From positions 1 to 18,756 of the forward strand of contig JAUVQB010000003.1 in assembly GCA_030598385.1 (NCBI GenBank): DNA of 18,756 bases, written 5' to 3'. The notes under the pieces were generated by a model. The model made no database searches, had not been told where the DNA came from, and saw nothing but the letters and a program-made list of their open reading frames with translations. Shown here in pieces: positions 1,824-18,425 of the stretch; position 1 is the first letter of the stretch; the number at the start of each line of letters is the position of its first letter. The position numbers and the translations under genes were made by a program. Source of the stretch: Alphaproteobacteria bacterium (lineage in GTDB: Bacteria > Pseudomonadota > Alphaproteobacteria > Kiloniellales > JAKSDN01).

Positions 1824-2201
1824 GAAGGATCCCTATCCCAAATGCGGGCCGCTACCGGCCGGGATCAGCCGTCCGAAATCCGGCGCGGCGAAGGAAAGAT
1901 TCATGGGCGTCCGTTGGCAGTTACGCCGGTCGGCCCGGCGGTCGCGATTTCCCCCTCGCGCCCCAGCCCCACGTCGCTTGCCCAGCCTCCCGGCTCCCGA
2001 TGCCGAGCGATTCGGCGGACGGCGTTACACTAAAGGCACTTGGGAGTAGATGCGTACGGGGCGCAGCGTTTTCAACGCTTCGCGCGCGGCAATGGCCCGG
2101 CCGGGTGGCGCGCCTGTGGCAGGAATGCAACGGCTCCCGGGCGGCCCCAGGGTAGCGAGAGCGCGGCCAGGGGGCCGCCAGGGACGACACGGGACCGGCG
2201 G
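1824..2201. other. 378-bp gap with no supported gene
   Basis: Lies between the antiporter start and the msrB stop. Open frames occur on both strands, but they are low-complexity Arg/Pro/Ala/Gly readings with no recognisable domain, so I call none. It should hold the antiporter promoter and the msrB 3' end. The only compact structure seen is a perfect 6-bp inverted repeat, AGCGTT-TTC-AACGCT, at 2065-2079, with no adjoining T-run. Confidence 0.5.
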
Positions 2202-2663
2202 CTATTCCTCCGCCTTGGCCTCGCTGGCGCCGGCGCCTTCGCCGCCTTCTGCCGCGTTGGGCGGTTGCAAATCCAAGGCCGCGGAGTTCATGCAGTAGCG
2301 CAACCCCGTGGGCTCCGGGCCGTCGGGAAAAACATGGCCGAGGTGGGCGTCGCAGCGGGCGCAGACCACCTCCGTGCGTTTCATCCAGAGGGCGCGGTCC
2401 GCGTGCTCATCCACCGCCTCGGGCGCGAGCGGTTCCCAAAATGACGGCCAACCGGTGCCGGAATCGAACTTGGCGTCGGAGGAGAACAGCGGCTCGCCGC
2501 AGCACACGCAGACATAGGTGCCGGGCGTCTTACTGTTCCAATACCGGCCGGTGAAGGCCCGCTCGGTGCCGGCCTGACGGGTCACGTGGAACTGTTCGGG
2601 GGTCAACTGAGCCAGCCACTCGGACTCGCCCTTCTTGATCTTGTCAGGTTTGCTCTCGCTCAT
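2202..2663 (-). CDS. msrB: Peptide-methionine (R)-S-oxide reductase
   Basis: Reduces methionine-R-sulfoxide in oxidised proteins, a repair step with thioredoxin as usual donor. Numbered from the start chosen here ([10 protein letters not shown]), the two zinc-binding CxxC pairs are Cys52/Cys55 and Cys101/Cys104. The catalytic cysteine lies in [11 protein letters not shown] (Cys124). The family signature DSGTGWPSF is present. An upstream in-frame ATG at 2684 would add seven residues. I prefer the ATG at 2663 because GGGGAG precedes it by 7 bases, while the upstream ATG has no good ribosome site. The C-terminus has about 20 residues rich in Ala, Glu and Gly beyond the catalytic domain. There is no export signal, so the protein is cytoplasmic. 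It is monocistronic here, 153 bases downstream of the sulfatase-like gene on the same strand. Confidence 0.96.
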
Positions 2664-2816
2664 CGTCGGGCTCCCCGTCTCCATTCATGTCTCTAGCCGC
2701 TCTCACCTGGGTATAGCACCACTTCGAGTCAAACGCCCGCGGCCTCAGATTTTCGTGATCTCTAAGATCAGTGGCAGAGCTCATGCAAGCCGGCGCCCCA
2801 GCCGAACAGAGGCCGC

Positions 2817-4520
2817 TTAGGGCGAATTGGTCCCACGCCCAAGACCGCTCATCGGCCTGCGCGGGAAGGGCGGCGGCGTGTGTTTGGCATTGAATGTCGC
2901 GGGATAATCGAGAAAGATATCCGGCGGCCGGTCGCCGTGCGAGCCGCCGAGAAACATCTCGCGGAACAGAGCTTGCAGGGACACGAGGTCTTGGCGATAG
3001 CCAGGCGACAGCGACGGCGAGCGCACGGCGAGCAGCACCGAGTACATGTCCGCCAGATCCTCATCCGAAAGCGGTTGCGGCGCCGTGGTCAACGGGGCGA
3101 CGCGCGCAATTCTCGATCCGTGGTCGCCATGAACCACGATCGTGGCGTCTTCGAAGGCGCCTATCTCCATGAGGCCCTCGAAGAACCGCCGCAAGGCGGA
3201 GTGAAGGCAGCCGACTTGCGCAAAATAGCCGTTATAGCGCAGCTCGCGCGAGGCCGCCGAGTTCAAGGCCCCGGTAGAGATGTCGAGATCGCCATAGCTG
3301 GTCCAGGTGAGCGGATCGGCCCGCACCCGACAGTCCCGGTCGAGCATATGGGTGACGTGAGGAACCATGAGGTGCGCGAAATAAGCGTTGCCGCGCGGCG
3401 CGGCGCGGATATCCGCCAGCATTCGCTCGAGCACGGCGAGACTATCCGGCCCATAGAGGGAAGGCCGTTCCGGTAGCATTCGCGACAACCGGCCAGCCGG
3501 CCCGGCGAGAAGCTCGAAGGCCCGGTAGGGAACGAGGGAGTAAAGGTAACTCGAGAGAATTACCTTGGCCTTCGCGTCGACCGTTAGATCGGCGCCAGCG
3601 ATATTCGTGATCGATCCGGCGGTGTAGGTTACGCAGCGCGCAGCATAGCCGGCCTCGCCTCCGCAATAGTCCCATCCTTTCATGTGATAGGCGTTGATGA
3701 AGTAACCGCGCTGGGCGAGCTGCTTGAACCAGCGGTTGCCCCAGAATAGACGCAAGAGTTCGTCTGCATCGCCGGAGATTTTGCCGTCGAGAGAGTCGAA
3801 CCCGTTGAGCAACGCAGGCACCGAATGCGTCGTTCGGGAGTATTCCGAATAGGCTCGGCCATAGAGCGCGAAGCCGAAATCGACGTAGAAACGCCGCAAA
3901 TCGTCGCGCAGTTCCTCGCCGCCGGCGATATCCGCAGGCAGGCCTTCGACGCCGATCTGTTCATCCAACACCAGATGGATGACGAGAGGCAGGTCCCTGG
4001 TCGCGCCCGCATCGCGCCGATAGGTCTCGCCCAGGGGCGGCGGCTCGGCGGGCAGCAACAGGGTGCTCACGAGGGCCATGGAAAAAACCGTGGCAAGCAC
4101 GATGCCCAGATTCGGCCCGAGCCACGACAGCACAGCGAAGGGAACCGCCGCGATCGGCAGAGCGATCAGGACGCTGACCGCAACGCCGCCGAAAGGGCCG
4201 GCCCAGTCGATGAGGTCTTGGCTGAGGCTGCCCCAAGAACCCAAGAGGTTCATTTCTTCAGGAAAGATCTGCATGGAAAAGGCTAGTAGAAGCAGGGTCA
4301 CGGCGGCGGCGCCGAAGGTCCGCGGGCGCAGAGACAGGAGAAGGCCGAACGGCAGGCCGGCAATGAGCAGAAGGCCGGCGGTGATCAGCACCTCCAGACG
4401 CCACAGCGGATATCCCTGGTACTGAACGAAGGCGGCGAAGCTGGGAAGAAACACCAGGCCGGGGGCCAGGAGGTTGGCGAGATGGCGCAGCAGGAACTTG
4501 GGCGACTTGGTGGAAGTCAT
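2817..4520 (-). CDS. Membrane-anchored sulfatase / phosphoethanolamine-transferase-like enzyme
   Basis: A 567-residue protein of the alkaline phosphatase superfamily. About five hydrophobic segments occupy residues 13-33, 43-65, 68-86, 107-131 and 136-157; a soluble domain, predicted periplasmic, runs from about 177 to 540. Candidate metal ligands are Asp186/Glu187 in HLVLDEQ and Asp466/His467 in VVHGDHGSR. SRTTHSVPALL resembles the EptA motif TALSVP and puts the nucleophile at Thr230. His388 in MVPHVTHML may be a further site residue. Relatives are sulfatases, LtaS-type transferases and EptA-type phosphoethanolamine transferases; the substrate here is unknown. It starts 8 bases after the methyltransferase stop, so the two are almost certainly co-transcribed and probably coupled. 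The context suggests modification of a surface glycan or lipid. The superfamily is confident, the reaction is not. Confidence 0.85.
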   Translation of the reverse strand: MTSTKSPKFLLRHLANLLAPGLVFLPSFAAFVQYQGYPLWRLEVLITAGLLLIAGLPFGLLLSLRPRTFGAAAVTLLLLAFSMQIFPEEMNLLGSWGSLSQDLIDWAGPFGGVAVSVLIALPIAAVPFAVLSWLGPNLGIVLATVFSMALVSTLLLPAEPPPLGETYRRDAGATRDLPLVIHLVLDEQIGVEGLPADIAGGEELRDDLRRFYVDFGFALYGRAYSEYSRTTHSVPALLNGFDSLDGKISGDADELLRLFWGNRWFKQLAQRGYFINAYHMKGWDYCGGEAGYAARCVTYTAGSITNIAGADLTVDAKAKVILSSYLYSLVPYRAFELLAGPAGRLSRMLPERPSLYGPDSLAVLERMLADIRAAPRGNAYFAHLMVPHVTHMLDRDCRVRADPLTWTSYGDLDISTGALNSAASRELRYNGYFAQVGCLHSALRRFFEGLMEIGAFEDATIVVHGDHGSRIARVAPLTTAPQPLSDEDLADMYSVLLAVRSPSLSPGYRQDLVSLQALFREMFLGGSHGDRPPDIFLDYPATFNAKHTPPPFPRRPMSGLGRGTNSP

Positions 4521-4528
4521 GGGGTGGC

Positions 4529-5953
4529 CTAGCCTGCGGATATATCCCGCGCGTCATACCAGACGAGCTCGCGACCGCCCGGGCTGAGGCTCAGCCGCTC
4601 CACGATCTTGGCCCGTCCGCCCAAGATATTGAGAAAGCCCTCGAGCGTGTAATCCGGGAAAATGTCATCGCGCAGGCCGAGCATGCCCCGAACCTGGGAA
4701 TCCTCCTTGCCGACGAACTCGACCACCCCGCAGGGCGCCAGATCGACGAGCCAGGAAACGATCGCCTCCAGCGGCACGTTGTTGGTGATCGCCAGGTGGT
4801 GGATGAGCGCCAGGGCCAGCACCGCATCGACGGCGCCGCGCCCCTGCCAGCCGGCCCGCTCCTGCTCGGCCCAACCTTGGGCAGGCGTCGGATCGCAGGC
4901 ATCGCCATAGAGCGGCGTGAAGCTCGTGCCGGCCTTTCGCGAACGGGCAAAGGCTATGTCCAAGGCCCCGAGGTCGTTGTCCCAGCCGACGACGTAGCCG
5001 GCCCCGCCGTCGAGCGCCGTCATGGCGAAGTCGCCGGTGTTACAGCCCAAGTCCCAGAGCATCTTGGGTTGCACGTCCACCACAAAGCGGCGGACAAAGT
5101 CGTGCTTGGCTGCGGTCTCGTCGTCGCTGTAGGTCTTGAACTGGCTATAGTCGCCCCAGTAGGTGGCGGTACTCCCGGCCGGCGCCAGGCCGTCGATCCA
5201 AGATCTAAGGCCGGTGAGCATCCCGACCAGGCGGGATTTCGGCAGGCCAGCCTGTTTGGCGTTGGCCGCCAATTCCGTTTTCGGCTTGTGGACCGATTTG
5301 CTGAGCGCCGCGTGCAGCACGACATGAGTGAGGACCCGCTTGGAAAACCGCCGTCGCAGTGGGATCAGCCGGCTGAGCTCGGCGCTGGGGATGCCGGCGA
5401 TCCGGCCGCGAAACCAAGCATTGTGCGGCACGCCGCAATAGGCGTGAAGCAGCAGCGGGTTGAGGAACTGCTCGCAAAACTGCCGATAGCCCTCCCAAAA
5501 CTGCCCCTCCCGGTAAGGACGGAATGACAAGAGGTCGATGAACAGCGGCTGGGCGCCCAGGAACTGGACGTTATAGGCGGAGGCATCGCAGAGGGTCGCG
5601 TCGCGCTCCAGCGCCGCGAGATGAACGTCGAGATGCAACAATGCCGCCGCCTTCAGTTGCGAGAATCCCCATTCGTAGGGATAGGATATGACCGGTAGGC
5701 GGGGATGTTCGATTACCGCATGGACACCGTCGCCGAGCATGGCGGCAAACGAATCCAGCTCCGCCAGATCGGCCGTATCGGAGGAAATGAGCCAGCCGCG
5801 CGCGACCAGGTCGTCGATCAGGCCGCTCGCACGTAGCTGTTCGAAATCCGCTGCAATTTCCGGGCTGACGGTCCGCAGAATGCGCTCGCCGGCCCGGTAG
5901 ACCCGGCCGGCAGGATCGCGGAACGAGGCGGGATCGGCGATCGGTCCCGTCAT
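4529..5953 (-). CDS. NoeA-like SAM-dependent methyltransferase with a large N-terminal domain
   Basis: A 474-residue protein. The C-terminal part (about 295-470) is a class I SAM-dependent methyltransferase: motif I DLGCNTGD at 301-308, acidic end of beta-2 in GWDND (323-327), and LALIHHLAITNNVP at about 381-394. The first 290 residues form a separate domain with the stretch DATLCDASAYNVQF (118-131), then PLFIDLLSF (136-144). I recall the layout from NoeA-type nodulation proteins and their many non-symbiotic homologues, whose substrate is not established. The ATG overlaps the TGA of the upstream small gene in an ATGA arrangement, and the next gene starts 8 bases after the stop, so this is the middle of a compact operon. 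There is no signal peptide, so it acts in the cytoplasm. It may methylate a precursor of an envelope glycan or lipid; that is inference. Confidence 0.8.
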   Translation of the reverse strand: MTGPIADPASFRDPAGRVYRAGERILRTVSPEIAADFEQLRASGLIDDLVARGWLISSDTADLAELDSFAAMLGDGVHAVIEHPRLPVISYPYEWGFSQLKAAALLHLDVHLAALERDATLCDASAYNVQFLGAQPLFIDLLSFRPYREGQFWEGYRQFCEQFLNPLLLHAYCGVPHNAWFRGRIAGIPSAELSRLIPLRRRFSKRVLTHVVLHAALSKSVHKPKTELAANAKQAGLPKSRLVGMLTGLRSWIDGLAPAGSTATYWGDYSQFKTYSDDETAAKHDFVRRFVVDVQPKMLWDLGCNTGDFAMTALDGGAGYVVGWDNDLGALDIAFARSRKAGTSFTPLYGDACDPTPAQGWAEQERAGWQGRGAVDAVLALALIHHLAITNNVPLEAIVSWLVDLAPCGVVEFVGKEDSQVRGMLGLRDDIFPDYTLEGFLNILGGRAKIVERLSLSPGGRELVWYDARDISAG

Positions 5954-6210
5954 TCTGTGGCCGACGGCGGCTCCTCTTGCGGCGCCTTCTTGTCCAAGCC
6001 CAACAGGCCCCGAAGCCGGTGCCAGTAAAGCTTGCCAACCACCCCCAAGCCGGCCACGCCACCGATAATGATCTGCAGCAGGATGCTGCCGGTCCCCGGG
6101 TCGAGGTAGGCCTGCGCGGTTTTGGGCGCGGCGAGCCAGGGCAGCACGAGCAGCAACAAAAAGGCCAAGCGTGCGGCACGCCTTCGGGTCGCAAGTCTTG
6201 AAGGTCTCAT
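5950..6210 (-). CDS. Small exported/membrane protein with YLDPGTGS motif
   Basis: An 86-residue protein, first gene of the three-gene unit. Residues 1-34 look like a signal peptide: Arg-rich start, a Leu/Val core and a plausible cleavage site after TAQA. The mature part opens with YLDPGTGSILLQIIIGGVAG, a motif I recognise from small uncharacterised proteins in many bacteria. One membrane helix (about 42-60) and a basic KLYWHRLRGLLG stretch follow, then a charged Pro/Glu tail. No enzymatic residues are visible; a scaffold or anchor for the neighbouring enzymes is possible but unproven. AAGGAA lies about 6 bases before the ATG, a good ribosome site. Its stop overlaps the methyltransferase start by 4 bases. 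Function unknown; reality of the gene is well supported by the motif and overlap. Confidence 0.82.
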   Translation of the reverse strand: MRPSRLATRRRAARLAFLLLLVLPWLAAPKTAQAYLDPGTGSILLQIIIGGVAGLGVVGKLYWHRLRGLLGLDKKAPQEEPPSATE

Positions 6211-6371
6211 AGTGGTTCCTTATAGCAGCCTACCAGGGGCCGGGCCACTGGGTTCGAGAGTCATGAATGACATAGCCCGAGAGCCTTACCAAAGCGTTAG
6301 CCTGCGCCACAACCGGTGCCGCACCCCTTGCCCCGCCTCTTGCCCTGGGGCCCGGCCTTCTGCAGGATCAG

Positions 6372-7172
6372 ATGATCATGTCTGAGAGCGGCCCCGAGGC
6401 ACATTCGACGGACTACCCCCGCGCGGCGCTCGTGACCGGCGCGGCGCGGCGTATCGGACGGGCCATCGCCCTCGATCTTGCCGCGCATGGCTGGGCGGTG
6501 GCGGTGCACCACAACCGTTCCACGGAGGCTGCCGAAGAGCTCGTGCGGCAGATCGACGCGGATGGCGGGCGCGCCGTCGCGCTCGCGGCGGACCTGGCGC
6601 GCGAAACGGAGAGCGCCGGCCTGGTCGCCCGCGCGACCGAGGCTCTGGGACCGCTGGGCTGCCTGGTGAACAGCGCCTCCCGGTTCGAACGGGACGAGAT
6701 CGGCGGCGTGACGCGGGAGTCCTGGGACAGCCATCTGGAGCCGAACCTGCGGGCGCCGCTGATCCTTGCCCAAGACTTTGCCAAAGCCCTGCCGCCGGAC
6801 CGCGGCGGCGTGATCATCAACCTGCTGGACGAGCGCGTCTGGAATCTGACGCCGCATTTCATCAGCTATACGGTTTCGAAGTCGGCGCTTTGGACGCTGA
6901 CCCGGACGCTCGCCCTGGCGCTCGCCCCGCGCATCCGCGTCAACGGAATCGGCCCGGGGCCGACGCTGCCGAGCGCCCGCCAGAGCGCCGAACAGTTTGC
7001 CAGGCAGGGCGCCTCCTTGCCGCTCGGACGGGGCACCAATCCCGAAGAGATCTGCCAGGCCATACAATTCCTGCTTGCCGCCGGCTCCGTGACGGGGCAG
7101 ATGATAGCGCTCGACGGCGGGCAGCACCTGGGCTGGGCCCAGGCAGACAAACGCAGCGACCCGAAGGAATAG
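6372..7172 (+). CDS. Pteridine-reductase-like short-chain dehydrogenase (FolM/PTR1 type)
   Basis: A 266-residue cytoplasmic SDR. The cofactor motif is TGAARRIG at 22-29; the Arg-rich form is that of NADPH-dependent pteridine reductases. NSAS at 100-103 and the YTVSK active site (Tyr166, Lys170) are present. Where most SDRs have the catalytic Ser, this one reads IINLLDERVW with Asp153, matching the Asp of PTR1 (NMVDA) and FolM (HITDF). That suggests reduction of dihydropterin or dihydrofolate rather than general dehydrogenase activity. folB follows 25 bases later on the same strand, which supports a pterin role. Two ATGs compete: at 6372 an AGGA lies 4 bases upstream, and at 6378 it lies 10 bases upstream, so the start is uncertain by two residues. 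The exact substrate is inferred. Confidence 0.85.
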   Translation: MIMSESGPEAHSTDYPRAALVTGAARRIGRAIALDLAAHGWAVAVHHNRSTEAAEELVRQIDADGGRAVALAADLARETESAGLVARATEALGPLGCLVNSASRFERDEIGGVTRESWDSHLEPNLRAPLILAQDFAKALPPDRGGVIINLLDERVWNLTPHFISYTVSKSALWTLTRTLALALAPRIRVNGIGPGPTLPSARQSAEQFARQGASLPLGRGTNPEEICQAIQFLLAAGSVTGQMIALDGGQHLGWAQADKRSDPKE

Positions 7173-15903: not shown

Positions 15904-16533
15904 TCAGTCCATCACTCCGTTTCGGTTCAAATGGACTTCGTTGAACTGCGCATAGCCGTCGCTGAGCTCCAGTTCGATCTTTCCCTCCACCTTGCAACGA
16001 CCGCGGCCAACCTCCGCCACCCTATATTCAATGCCTTCGGGCAGGCAGATCTGGGCGCGATGTTGATTGCCCGCTACACCGATGATGGGCTCGCCGGAGG
16101 ATTCGCAAACACCGTGGGCGAGACACTTGGCGGTGCGGCTCTCCATGTCCATCTCGAACTCGATCTCGGTGAAGATCGGGTCATAGACTTCATCGGACAT
16201 CTCGGTGTAGACGCAGAAAACGTTCGAAAACGGTTCGGCTTCCTGGCCGAGTGAGATCTTCAGAAGCGCCTCGCGCTGCGCCTCGTTGGCATTAGCATCG
16301 ATGAAGATCTGGCATTTCCCCTTACCCTCATGGATCGGGCCCGGCCAGGCGTAGATCGCCCCCATTTTCAACCCATCCAGCGAGACCTCGCCGAAATGCC
16401 CTTTGTCGATCCTGAAGAAGCCCGTGCCCCGGCAATCGCCCTGCGTCGGCAAGGCTTCGAATTGACACGGACAACTGTAATCGCAGTTGCAGTTACCGAA
16501 CTCCAGTCCATGAATCTCCCAATCGATCGCCAT
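15904..16533 (-). CDS. DUF1326 family protein
   Basis: A 209-residue protein of unknown function. The Cys-rich N-terminus GNCNCDYSCPCQFEALPT has Cys15, Cys17, Cys21 and Cys23, with Cys34 soon after, suggesting a metal or redox site. Its sequence fits the DUF1326 family, which in my recollection often neighbours DUF2182 membrane proteins; none is seen here. The C-terminal region is rich in beta-strand-like alternation. A good ribosome site, GGAGAGG, precedes the ATG at 16533. It starts 39 bases after the DUF1059-like gene on the same strand, a likely operon. A second copy of the C-terminal region lies at 18511-18756: 20 of 52 aligned residues are identical. Metal binding is inferred only from the cysteine spacing. 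Confidence 0.85.
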   Translation of the reverse strand: MAIDWEIHGLEFGNCNCDYSCPCQFEALPTQGDCRGTGFFRIDKGHFGEVSLDGLKMGAIYAWPGPIHEGKGKCQIFIDANANEAQREALLKISLGQEAEPFSNVFCVYTEMSDEVYDPIFTEIEFEMDMESRTAKCLAHGVCESSGEPIIGVAGNQHRAQICLPEGIEYRVAEVGRGRCKVEGKIELELSDGYAQFNEVHLNRNGVMD

Positions 16534-16946: not shown

Positions 16947-18425
16947 ATGAAGCTGTCCGAACGAGAGTTCACGGTCGCCGAGCGCTACGCGACGGGAGAA
17001 ACTCATAAAGAGATCGCAGCCAAGCTTCATATTGCCCCGGCGACGGTGCGCAACCATCTTGCGGCCATCTATCGCAAGCTCGAGGTCAAGAATAAGCCGG
17101 AGTTGATCCAGGCCCTGCCGGCGCAGGAGGGCAACGGCACCGCACTGCCGTCTCCCGAAGCGCATGCGCCGACGATCCCGCTACTGCGCCATCTGGACGA
17201 GGATGGGCGGCCGTCGATAGACGGTGCCTCGATCGCGGTGATGCCCTTTGCCAACATAGGCCCCACGGAGGCGGAGTACTTCGGCCACGGTGTCGTCGCG
17301 GACATCCAGCACGAGCTGACTCGCTGTCACGATCTGTTCGTTTCCGGGCGAAGTTCCTGCCTCGCCCTGAGTGGGCAGCCGGCCGACGCCGCCGCCGTGG
17401 CGAGGAAGCTTGCGGTTCAGTACCTGCTGCAAGGCACCGTGCGATCCCAACATGACAAGATCCGGCTCACCGCGGAGCTGGTCGATGGCGCGACGGGAAC
17501 GGTCTTATGGTCCGAGCGCTACGACCGGGTGCTCAGCGACGTTCTCGAAATCGAGGCGGAAGTCGCCAACTCGATCGCCGCAAGCCTCGCCCTGCAAATC
17601 GCGGGCGCGCAATACGAGCGCCGCCGACACTTATCAACCGACGAGCTCTCCGCCTACGATTGGCGGTTGCGCGGCAATCGACTTTTAGAGTTGGGCGGCG
17701 TGGAAAATCTAAAAAAGGCCAGAGACTGCTTTGTCAGCGCCTTGCAGCTCGAACCCAATTCCGCGGCGACCTATGCCGGTCTCTCGATGTGTTTCGGATA
17801 CGAATGTGACTTGCTGTTGACGGACAACTATGCGGAGAGCCTCGAGCGTCATATGGAGTACGCCGAGCGGGCGGTCGCATTGGACGAATCCGACAGCAGG
17901 AGTCATTACGCCATGGTCTGCGCCCTCCTGCTCAGCGGTCAATTCGAACGTGCCGACCTTCATGCCGTACGGGCGCTGGAGTTGAATCCAAGCGAGTACC
18001 ACAACCTCTGCAGCCGGGGATACACCTTGATGTCCTTGGGGCGAAATGAAGATAGCCTGGCCTGTTTCAACCAGTCGCTGCGCCGAAACCCGCTCGCGCC
18101 CAACAGCTGTTTGATGGCCCTTGGCCTCATCGAGTACCTGGAGATGAACTACGGGCAATCTGCCGTCGCCTTGTCGCGGATGACGGCCGCCACCATTCAA
18201 AAGGCCAGTACGCTCGCCGCCGCCTGCGCCCAGTCGGGACACGAAGACGCGGCCCGTACTGCCGCGCTGGAGTTCAGGCATTTGAGCGAGGAAGTCCCTG
18301 TTTGCCCAACAAGATCGGAGGCTTTGGATTGGCCGGCGTTCTGGCGCCTTGCCTATCCCTGTTTAAACGAGGACGCCTTCGAGCGCGTACTAGAGGGCAT
18401 CGGCAAGGCGGAGTTGCCGATATAG
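16947..18425 (+). CDS. LuxR-type HTH regulator with TolB-like domain and TPR-like repeats
   Basis: A 492-residue transcription regulator. Residues 1-56 are a LuxR-type helix-turn-helix (LSEREFTVAERYATGETHKE, then IAPATVRNHLAAIYRKLEVK). A TolB-like domain follows at about 94-195, recognised by SIAVMPFANIG, EYFGHGVVADI and YLLQGTVRSQ, then LWSERYDR. From about 240 to 450 the sequence is TPR-like, with repeated ALQLEPN and ALELNPSE helix ends. The common relatives of this layout carry an OmpR/CadC-type winged helix or a cyclase domain instead of an HTH at the N-terminus, so this fusion is less usual. No membrane segment was seen, so it is probably cytoplasmic. It is divergent from the DUF1059-DUF1326 pair and has the dyad upstream; it may regulate both. 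GC is lower than in the housekeeping genes. Confidence 0.85.
   Translation: MKLSEREFTVAERYATGETHKEIAAKLHIAPATVRNHLAAIYRKLEVKNKPELIQALPAQEGNGTALPSPEAHAPTIPLLRHLDEDGRPSIDGASIAVMPFANIGPTEAEYFGHGVVADIQHELTRCHDLFVSGRSSCLALSGQPADAAAVARKLAVQYLLQGTVRSQHDKIRLTAELVDGATGTVLWSERYDRVLSDVLEIEAEVANSIAASLALQIAGAQYERRRHLSTDELSAYDWRLRGNRLLELGGVENLKKARDCFVSALQLEPNSAATYAGLSMCFGYECDLLLTDNYAESLERHMEYAERAVALDESDSRSHYAMVCALLLSGQFERADLHAVRALELNPSEYHNLCSRGYTLMSLGRNEDSLACFNQSLRRNPLAPNSCLMALGLIEYLEMNYGQSAVALSRMTAATIQKASTLAAACAQSGHEDAARTAALEFRHLSEEVPVCPTRSEALDWPAFWRLAYPCLNEDAFERVLEGIGKAELPI

Follow-up and report, generated by a model that had tools for sequence, protein, structure and literature searches.

A conserved three-gene cassette of the noeA-noeB family in a non-nodulation setting, with the cell envelope as its likeliest target

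Three closely packed genes on the minus strand of an 18,756-nucleotide stretch of alphaproteobacterial DNA (contig JAUVQB010000003.1 of assembly GCA_030598385.1; hereafter the window) raise the question of what a small YLDPGTGS protein, a NoeA-like enzyme and a membrane enzyme of the alkaline phosphatase (AP) superfamily might accomplish together. Read from position 6210 down to 2817, the trio consists of open reading frames (ORFs), as called on the window, of 86, 474 and 567 amino acids (aa), the small and middle ORFs overlapping by 4 bases (5950-5953) and the middle and third being separated by 8 bases (4521-4528), just as an original prediction made from the sequence alone had stated. That prediction took the three for one envelope-modifying unit belonging to no named system. 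Its idea of a single unit is borne out by the neighbourhood surveys presented here and envelope modification is kept as the likeliest reading. The system is not nameless, since the nod-box n5 operon nodL-noeA-noeB holds all three parts and the neighbours of the Legionella protein Lani_1194 had already been reported (PMC9758233). The window cassette is understood, almost certainly, as an extra-symbiotic member of the noeA-noeB family.

The assignment is carried by plasmid-borne relatives. A search of plasmid proteins with the middle protein returned 65 records, including 57 from Sinorhizobium, 3 from Rhizobium and 1 from Ensifer. The gene order in Ensifer canadensis is nodL, a hypothetical protein (WP_011970946.1), noeA and noeB, and the same cassette ORFs, unannotated in the table consulted, are found on pSymA of S. 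meliloti 1021. WP_011970946.1 carries the YLDPGTGS motif and matches the small window protein at 45% over 53 aa; the middle protein is 43.5% identical to S. meliloti NoeA over 457 of its 474 aa, and the third matches NoeB at 31% over 388 aa (E value 1e-35). The small ORF is present in 61 plasmid records (57 Sinorhizobium, 3 Rhizobium, 1 Ensifer), in agreement with the genus totals for NoeA, by totals only. Both noeA and noeB were reportedly named as host-range genes by Ardourel et al. in 1995. Their role in Nod factor recognition was still called hypothesised in 2022 (PMC9048898), and the phrases NoeA-like, NoeB-like, NoeA homolog and NoeB homolog were not found in open-licence PubMed Central (PMC) papers. 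Fresh here are the unnamed small gene of the nodL-noeA-noeB operon and the parallel cassettes built on a related small protein.

The three genes form a real, conserved unit. Database relatives at E ≤ 0.001 number 120 for the small protein (of 136 candidates), at least 7887 for the middle protein and at least 112 for the third, scoring for these two having covered the 8000 candidates with most shared words. Among 80 loci collected with the middle-protein alignment, which are the best 80 of 580 confirmed and so favour close relatives, the small gene lies within 3 kb of the middle gene in 75, immediately upstream in the same orientation in 73 and with the exact 4-base overlap in 20. It is missing from L060, L062, L080, L100 and L110, a contig end cutting only L060 there, while it sits on the opposite strand in L101 and behind the middle gene in L103. 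An AP-fold gene occurs within 3.5 kb of the middle gene in 63 of the 80 loci, five of the 80 (L034, L036, L054, L076, L088) matching by construction because the AP profile was built partly from them. No fourth conserved gene was found upstream: no Pfam family occurs in more than 2 of 49 upstream ORFs, which include a few sugar-pathway genes. These 49 were hand-picked from 78 length-called ORFs, some possibly in a wrong frame, with AP-fold genes and doubtful frames mostly omitted.

Genome samples from the class and the phylum give a consistent picture. A middle-gene match of at least 300 bits was obtained in 10 of 190 class genomes, with the small gene adjoining in 8 of these, the exceptions being a partial match (G141, profile positions 112-461) and a gene with an internal stop (G129); 20 of the 30 matching genomes were not counted, their weak partial matches to the methyltransferase region scoring below 30 bits. 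In the phylum sample (299 genomes, the window's own included), all 7 middle-gene carriers have the small gene within 2 kb, and in 3 of them the AP-fold gene stands between the small and middle genes. Genome co-occurrence, evaluated by Fisher's test with the window's genome removed and kinship uncorrected, gave p = 8e-8 for the class and 5e-9 for the phylum; together with the adjacency counts of the 80 loci, this rules out a rare or chance neighbourhood. Sequence divergence of the three proteins across 55 loci appears moderately correlated (r 0.38, 0.41 and 0.28, with 0 of 2000 permutations as high; species kinship uncorrected).

By record titles, many of which denote metagenome bins, the small and middle genes occur together in Alpha- and Gammaproteobacteria, Acidobacteria, Planctomycetota, Nitrospinaceae, Anaerolineaceae, Acidimicrobiaceae and Gemmatimonadaceae. 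Virus-like contigs carry the cassette as well. In L181 (4687-8526) a phage tail gene precedes the start of the small gene by 0.75 kb, and a pI/Zot-like ATPase gene is near in L182 (2582-5533) and L183 (4829-7221), the latter with a weak small-protein match (20.6 bits) and an AP gene cut by the end of the stretch. A position less than 1 kb from a tail gene on a phage-like contig fits surface modification. The reach of the unit far beyond rhizobia, virus-like contigs included, makes the noeA/noeB problem testable in simple free-living bacteria.

For the middle protein, the predicted likeness to NoeA stands, and what had been missed in calling it a methyltransferase is the kinase-like N-terminal domain, the NoeA family being described as kinase-methyltransferases found in 1201 species besides Legionella (PMC9758233). 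All 100 aligned rows, the window's among them, keep D123, N128 and D140; on this conservation and the published family assignment the plain methyltransferase reading is rejected. Kinase and S-adenosylmethionine (SAM) motifs are both present in all 100 rows, a set that was collected with the whole protein. The model of the protein (predicted local distance difference test, pLDDT, 83.4; predicted template modelling score, pTM, 0.87) shows a helix and strand order in the N-terminal domain that would fit a protein-kinase-like topology, and we consider an active kinase domain quite probable. WbdD was retrieved in the fold search via its methyltransferase domain, 1.2 below the best Z. That the methyl group is placed on a phosphate has, in our estimate, slightly less than an even chance.

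The third protein had been expected to resemble membrane sulfatases or phosphoethanolamine transferases. Its membership of a membrane-bound AP/sulfatase superfamily stood, the predicted fold being clearly of this type (model pLDDT 88.3), whereas its predicted nucleophile is Thr and not the formylglycine of sulfatases. The Pfam Sulfatase score of 20.2 bits is under the curated cut-off of 25, and the PDB matches by sequence profile were led by an arylsulfatase (E 8e-6), with LtaS second (E 1.7e-5). At the nucleophile the window reads T230-T-H-S-V; of 78 aligned AP proteins, window included, 71 have T and 7 have S in the T230 position, all 78 have D466 and 64 have H467. The formylglycine motif C/S-x-P-x-R is not there, and 6 of the 78 have, at any point in the sequence, a C/S-x-P-x-R closely followed by T, S or L. 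The sulfatase reading is ruled out by Thr/Ser at the nucleophile. LtaS and EptA-type transferases likewise combine a multi-helix membrane domain with a Thr nucleophile, and we lean slightly towards a transferase over a hydrolase as the outer enzyme. A second relative of the third protein, scoring 512 bits, was noted at a contig end in the window's own genome (G000:C489:4-1539).

The small protein, predicted as exported, does carry the YLDPGTGS motif, at residues 35-42, but from its sequence it is probably inserted in the membrane rather than simply exported: a leader-like stretch ending in A-x-A precedes Tyr-Leu-Asp-Pro-Gly-Thr-Gly-Ser, followed by one transmembrane helix and a basic tail. A34 and Y35 (-1 Ala and +1 Tyr) are present in 28 of 28 rows of a broader small-family alignment, A4. 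Where the small protein adjoins the middle gene, 80 of 93 show the A-x-A-Y signature; next to sulfotransferases 12 of 12 do so and next to PF04464 genes 2 of 3, those without it having, for example, S or G at -1; the Y-x-[DG] stretch is common to all 109 small-protein ORFs. In an Anaerolineaceae locus (L107) and in virus-like contig L182, whose protein has 46 aa, the ORF starts directly with M-YLDP and has no leader, and in L106 and L183 a Met lies at the same place inside longer, mechanically called ORFs. Starts of this kind support Tyr as the functional N-terminus. No mention of the YLDPGTGS motif was found in open-licence PMC papers.

Relatives of the small protein extend beyond the noeA-noeB setting. 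The A4 profile matches 30 distinct genomes, with 15 hits among the 190 of the class and 16 among the 299 of the phylum. Of the 30, 14 have a kinase-methyltransferase as the partner, 12 a Sulfotransfer_3 protein, 3 a PF04464 glycerophosphotransferase-like protein (in one of them fused to the small domain) and 1 none that was recognised. The original prediction had named pairing only with unrelated genes as what would speak against it; other partners do occur, yet one of these three kinds of group-transfer enzyme is nearby in 29 of the 30 places. An arylsulfotransferase accompanies the sulfotransferase in 11 of the 12 places; in the remaining one (L160) the companion is an AP-superfamily gene. 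The PF04464-like, sulfotransferase and arylsulfotransferase profiles were built from genes beside small proteins, and a Pfam check above curated cut-off upheld 12 of 12 sulfotransferases (PF13469), 11 of 11 arylsulfotransferases (PF14269) and all 3 PF04464 proteins of the survey. Six genomes found later, outside the profiles (G159, G453, G254, G395, G307, G206), all have both sulfate genes. As background, the sulfotransferase profile matches 1 of the 80 kinase-methyltransferase loci and the other two profiles match 0 of 80. In L152 the small and PF04464 genes are 2.5 kb apart and separated by other genes; in L149 the PF04464 gene is convergent.

Further arrangements were observed in passing. 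Arylsulfotransferase, small YxGPGxG protein and sulfotransferase form cassettes in 11 genomes (L153, L154, L161, L163, L164, L175-L180), and no description of a sulfotransferase/arylsulfotransferase cassette with a small membrane protein was found in open-licence PMC papers. L150:7633-8931 encodes a PF04464 glycerophosphotransferase-like protein with a YLDPGTGS domain fused at its N-terminus. Near G187, two more PF04464-kind cassettes are present in G474, where one of the PF04464 matches is under the Pfam cut-off, while G471 has a kinase-methyltransferase cassette and G477 has no recognised partner. L184 holds two cassettes of small protein, PF04464-type and AP-fold genes within about 9 kb of one contig, with one PF04464 match likewise under the cut-off.

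The chemistry of the outer enzyme matches that of the inner enzyme, and the third residue of the motif (+3) varies with the partner. Across 115 small-protein places of all sources, the +3 residue is D wherever an AP-fold gene is nearby (87 of 87; 84 counted by pattern, three misread ones by eye) and also at all 17 places lacking both outer genes, and it is G at all 11 with an arylsulfotransferase; L160, the sulfotransferase place with an AP-superfamily partner, has D. This rule may simply reflect subfamily descent. The occurrence of small-protein relatives near PF04464 and sulfotransferase genes suggests a shared coupling subunit. In its widest form the proposal is a tentative one, which we consider possible yet rather doubtful: the small Y-x-x-P-G-x-G protein would be the common subunit of a two-enzyme class of group translocation, in which a cytoplasmic enzyme loads an acidic group on a membrane carrier and an outer enzyme of matching chemistry passes it on to the surface. 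The loaders would be NoeA-type enzymes for phosphate or methyl phosphate, PF04464-type enzymes for glycerol phosphate and sulfotransferases for sulfate, the outer enzymes AP-fold proteins for phosphate and arylsulfotransferases for sulfate. If true, separate pathways of glycan-phosphate and sulfate modification would be linked by one design.

For the window cassette itself, we propose the following sequence of events. At the inner face of the cytoplasmic membrane, the kinase-like domain of the NoeA-type enzyme would phosphorylate a lipid-linked sugar or a lipid head group, and the same enzyme would methylate it, most economically on the phosphate just added, in the manner of WbdD. The NoeB-type enzyme, whose active site would face outward, would transfer, or less likely remove, the phospho-group on a glycan or lipid of the envelope via a Thr-bound intermediate. 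The single-span small protein may couple both enzymes across the membrane, its basic tail lying inside and its conserved Y-L-D-P-G-T-G-S end outside, a role to which we give even odds; the mechanism as a whole stands about equally balanced. An envelope target is likeliest, favoured by the phage-like contig with its nearby tail gene and by the integral-membrane nature of the outer enzyme. A combined search on methyl phosphate gave no match among open-licence PMC papers.

Several observations weigh against this mechanism. Compared by sequence with solved kinases, Pfam kinases and an APH profile, the N-terminal domain of the middle protein matched none of them significantly; the APH profile, a weak one built from 15 of 30 fetched sequences, reached an hhalign probability of 0.13, no better than unrelated controls (0.06-0.77), though its best local alignment is on the catalytic loop. 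In fold searches with the full model the lists are filled by the methyltransferase domain, so that the N-terminal part shows no kinase match there. The methyltransferase fold lies no nearer to phosphate-methylating enzymes than to those that methylate sugars or small molecules, and the methyl could be on a sugar, not on phosphate. The fold comparison of the third protein cannot tell a transferase from a sulfatase or phosphatase. Its gene is also the least constant part of the cassette: 17 of the 80 loci have no AP-fold gene within 3.5 kb, the sequence ending at the middle gene in L083 and L106, and 9 of these 17 belong to the 10 acidobacterial loci. The AP-less acidobacterial loci (L064, L069, L070, L079, L080, L081, L087, L100, L102), 7 of which keep the small gene, indicate that the inner pair can occur with no outer-enzyme gene next to it. 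The housekeeping character of the genes flanking the window cassette (uvrB, a Na/Ca exchanger, msrB, a short-chain dehydrogenase/reductase (SDR) gene, folB, uvrC) means that no substrate is indicated by context.

Other explanations account for parts of this evidence. The NoeA-type enzyme could cap a lipid-linked glycan with methyl phosphate in the manner of WbdD, which caps O9a chains (PMC3482155), the AP-fold enzyme, where present, trimming the caps outside as a phosphodiesterase or phosphatase. Same-fold hydrolases exist within the AP superfamily, and the 17 loci without a nearby AP gene, 9 of them acidobacterial, are expected of an optional editor. We nevertheless regard capping with editing as unlikely, given that the upstream ORFs show no recurring gene for glycan export or polymerisation (of 49 scanned, 2 at most share a Pfam family) and that the membrane helices and Thr nucleophile follow the layout familiar from LtaS/EptA-type transferases. 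Decoration by two unrelated activities, with a sugar or lipid hydroxyl methylated, phosphorylation elsewhere and NoeB acting on a different bond, would resemble the Nod factor decoration proposed for NoeA; it draws on the hypothesis tying noeA/noeB to Nod factor recognition (PMC9048898, PMC9758233) and on the undiscriminating methyltransferase fold. To judge by record titles, many carriers do not nodulate (e.g., Pelagibacteraceae, Acidobacteria, Anaerolineaceae), so that Nod factor is not the general substrate, and kinase and methyltransferase motifs are never apart in the 100 whole-protein rows, which leaves this explanation decidedly unlikely. A secreted effector acting in the host cell, suggested by the listing of Lani_1194 and its neighbours as putative effectors (PMC9758233), is highly improbable for a cassette with many environmental carriers, usually beside an integral-membrane partner, found also on virus-like contigs and in the window among housekeeping genes; PMC9758233 itself leaves an envelope role open. 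Phosphorylation and methylation inside, with handling of the phospho-group outside, remains the reading that we favour. The features of the cassette are collected in the table.

Features of the three-gene cassette in the window (positions of the whole stretch)
Feature	Position	Strand	Basis
Small YLDPGTGS membrane protein, 86 aa, first cassette gene	5950..6210	-	ORF; family alignment; small ORF of nodL-noeA-noeB, 45% over 53 aa
Leader-like stretch ending A-x-A, residues 1-34	6109..6210	-	Hydrophobic stretch 12-30; alignment
YLDPGTGS motif, residues 35-42, predicted mature N-terminus	6085..6108	-	Alignments
Transmembrane helix, residues 43-61	6028..6084	-	Hydropathy
NoeA-type kinase-methyltransferase, 474 aa	4529..5953	-	ORF; 43.5% to NoeA over 457 aa; model
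Kinase-like N-terminal domain, residues 1-250	5204..5953	-	Published for Lani_1194 (PMC9758233); helix/strand order of model
Catalytic-loop-like D123-x4-N128 and D140	5534..5587	-	Invariant in 100/100 aligned rows
Class I SAM methyltransferase domain, residues 262-474	4532..5170	-	
NoeB-type membrane AP-superfamily enzyme, 567 aa	2817..4520	-	ORF; 31% over 388 aa to NoeB, E 1e-35; model
N-terminal transmembrane region, about five helices, residues 1-160	4041..4520	-	Hydropathy; model helices
AP-superfamily catalytic domain, residues 172-567	2820..4007	-	
Predicted nucleophile T230	3831..3833	-	T/S conservation; starts helix in model
Metal-site D466-H467	3120..3125	-	Alignment conservation

Scanning of positions 2100-6600 revealed no sigma-70-like promoter and 6 terminator-like matches, with 3.0 expected. 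The source genome consists of 512 contigs and is 72% complete. Elsewhere in the window, 16947-18425 encodes a LuxR-type DNA-binding domain fused to tetratricopeptide repeats, and a DUF1326 gene is nearby (15904-16533).

Among known systems, the phosphotransferases LtaS and EptA-EptC have in common with the third window protein a multi-helix transmembrane N-terminus, an extracytoplasmic AP-fold domain, a Thr nucleophile and the metal ligands, at about 10-14% identity in structural alignments. WbdD of E. coli provides the precedent for a kinase joined to phosphate methylation in capping O9a chains, and its domains run methyltransferase, kinase, coiled coil (PMC3482155). The window protein does not match this order, having the kinase-like domain first and the methyltransferase C-terminal; in the fold comparison its residues 262-474 align with WbdD residues 10-224. 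WbdD is called remotely related in PMC9758233, there of another protein, Lcin_0519. The sulfotransferase, small YxGPGxG protein and arylsulfotransferase cassettes likewise place a homologous small membrane protein between two group-transfer enzymes, and differ from the window in having sulfate instead of phosphate chemistry and G instead of D at +3. Lani_1193-1194-1195 of Legionella anisa, likened here by the paper's description, is again a kinase-methyltransferase with conserved neighbours, Lani_1193 being kept in 65% and the AP-fold Lani_1195 in 38% of 816 neighbourhoods; Lani_1193 is plausibly the small protein, of which the main text gives no description (PMC9758233). The closest counterpart is the nodL-noeA-noeB operon (nod box n5) of Sinorhizobium/Ensifer. 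That copy is plasmid-borne behind nodL, with its small gene annotated merely as a hypothetical protein, whereas the window copy is flanked by msrB and the SDR gene and no nod genes were seen in the window. In both, the same three genes stand in the same order on the same strand, the window's noeB homologue lying directly downstream of its noeA homologue across the 8-base gap.

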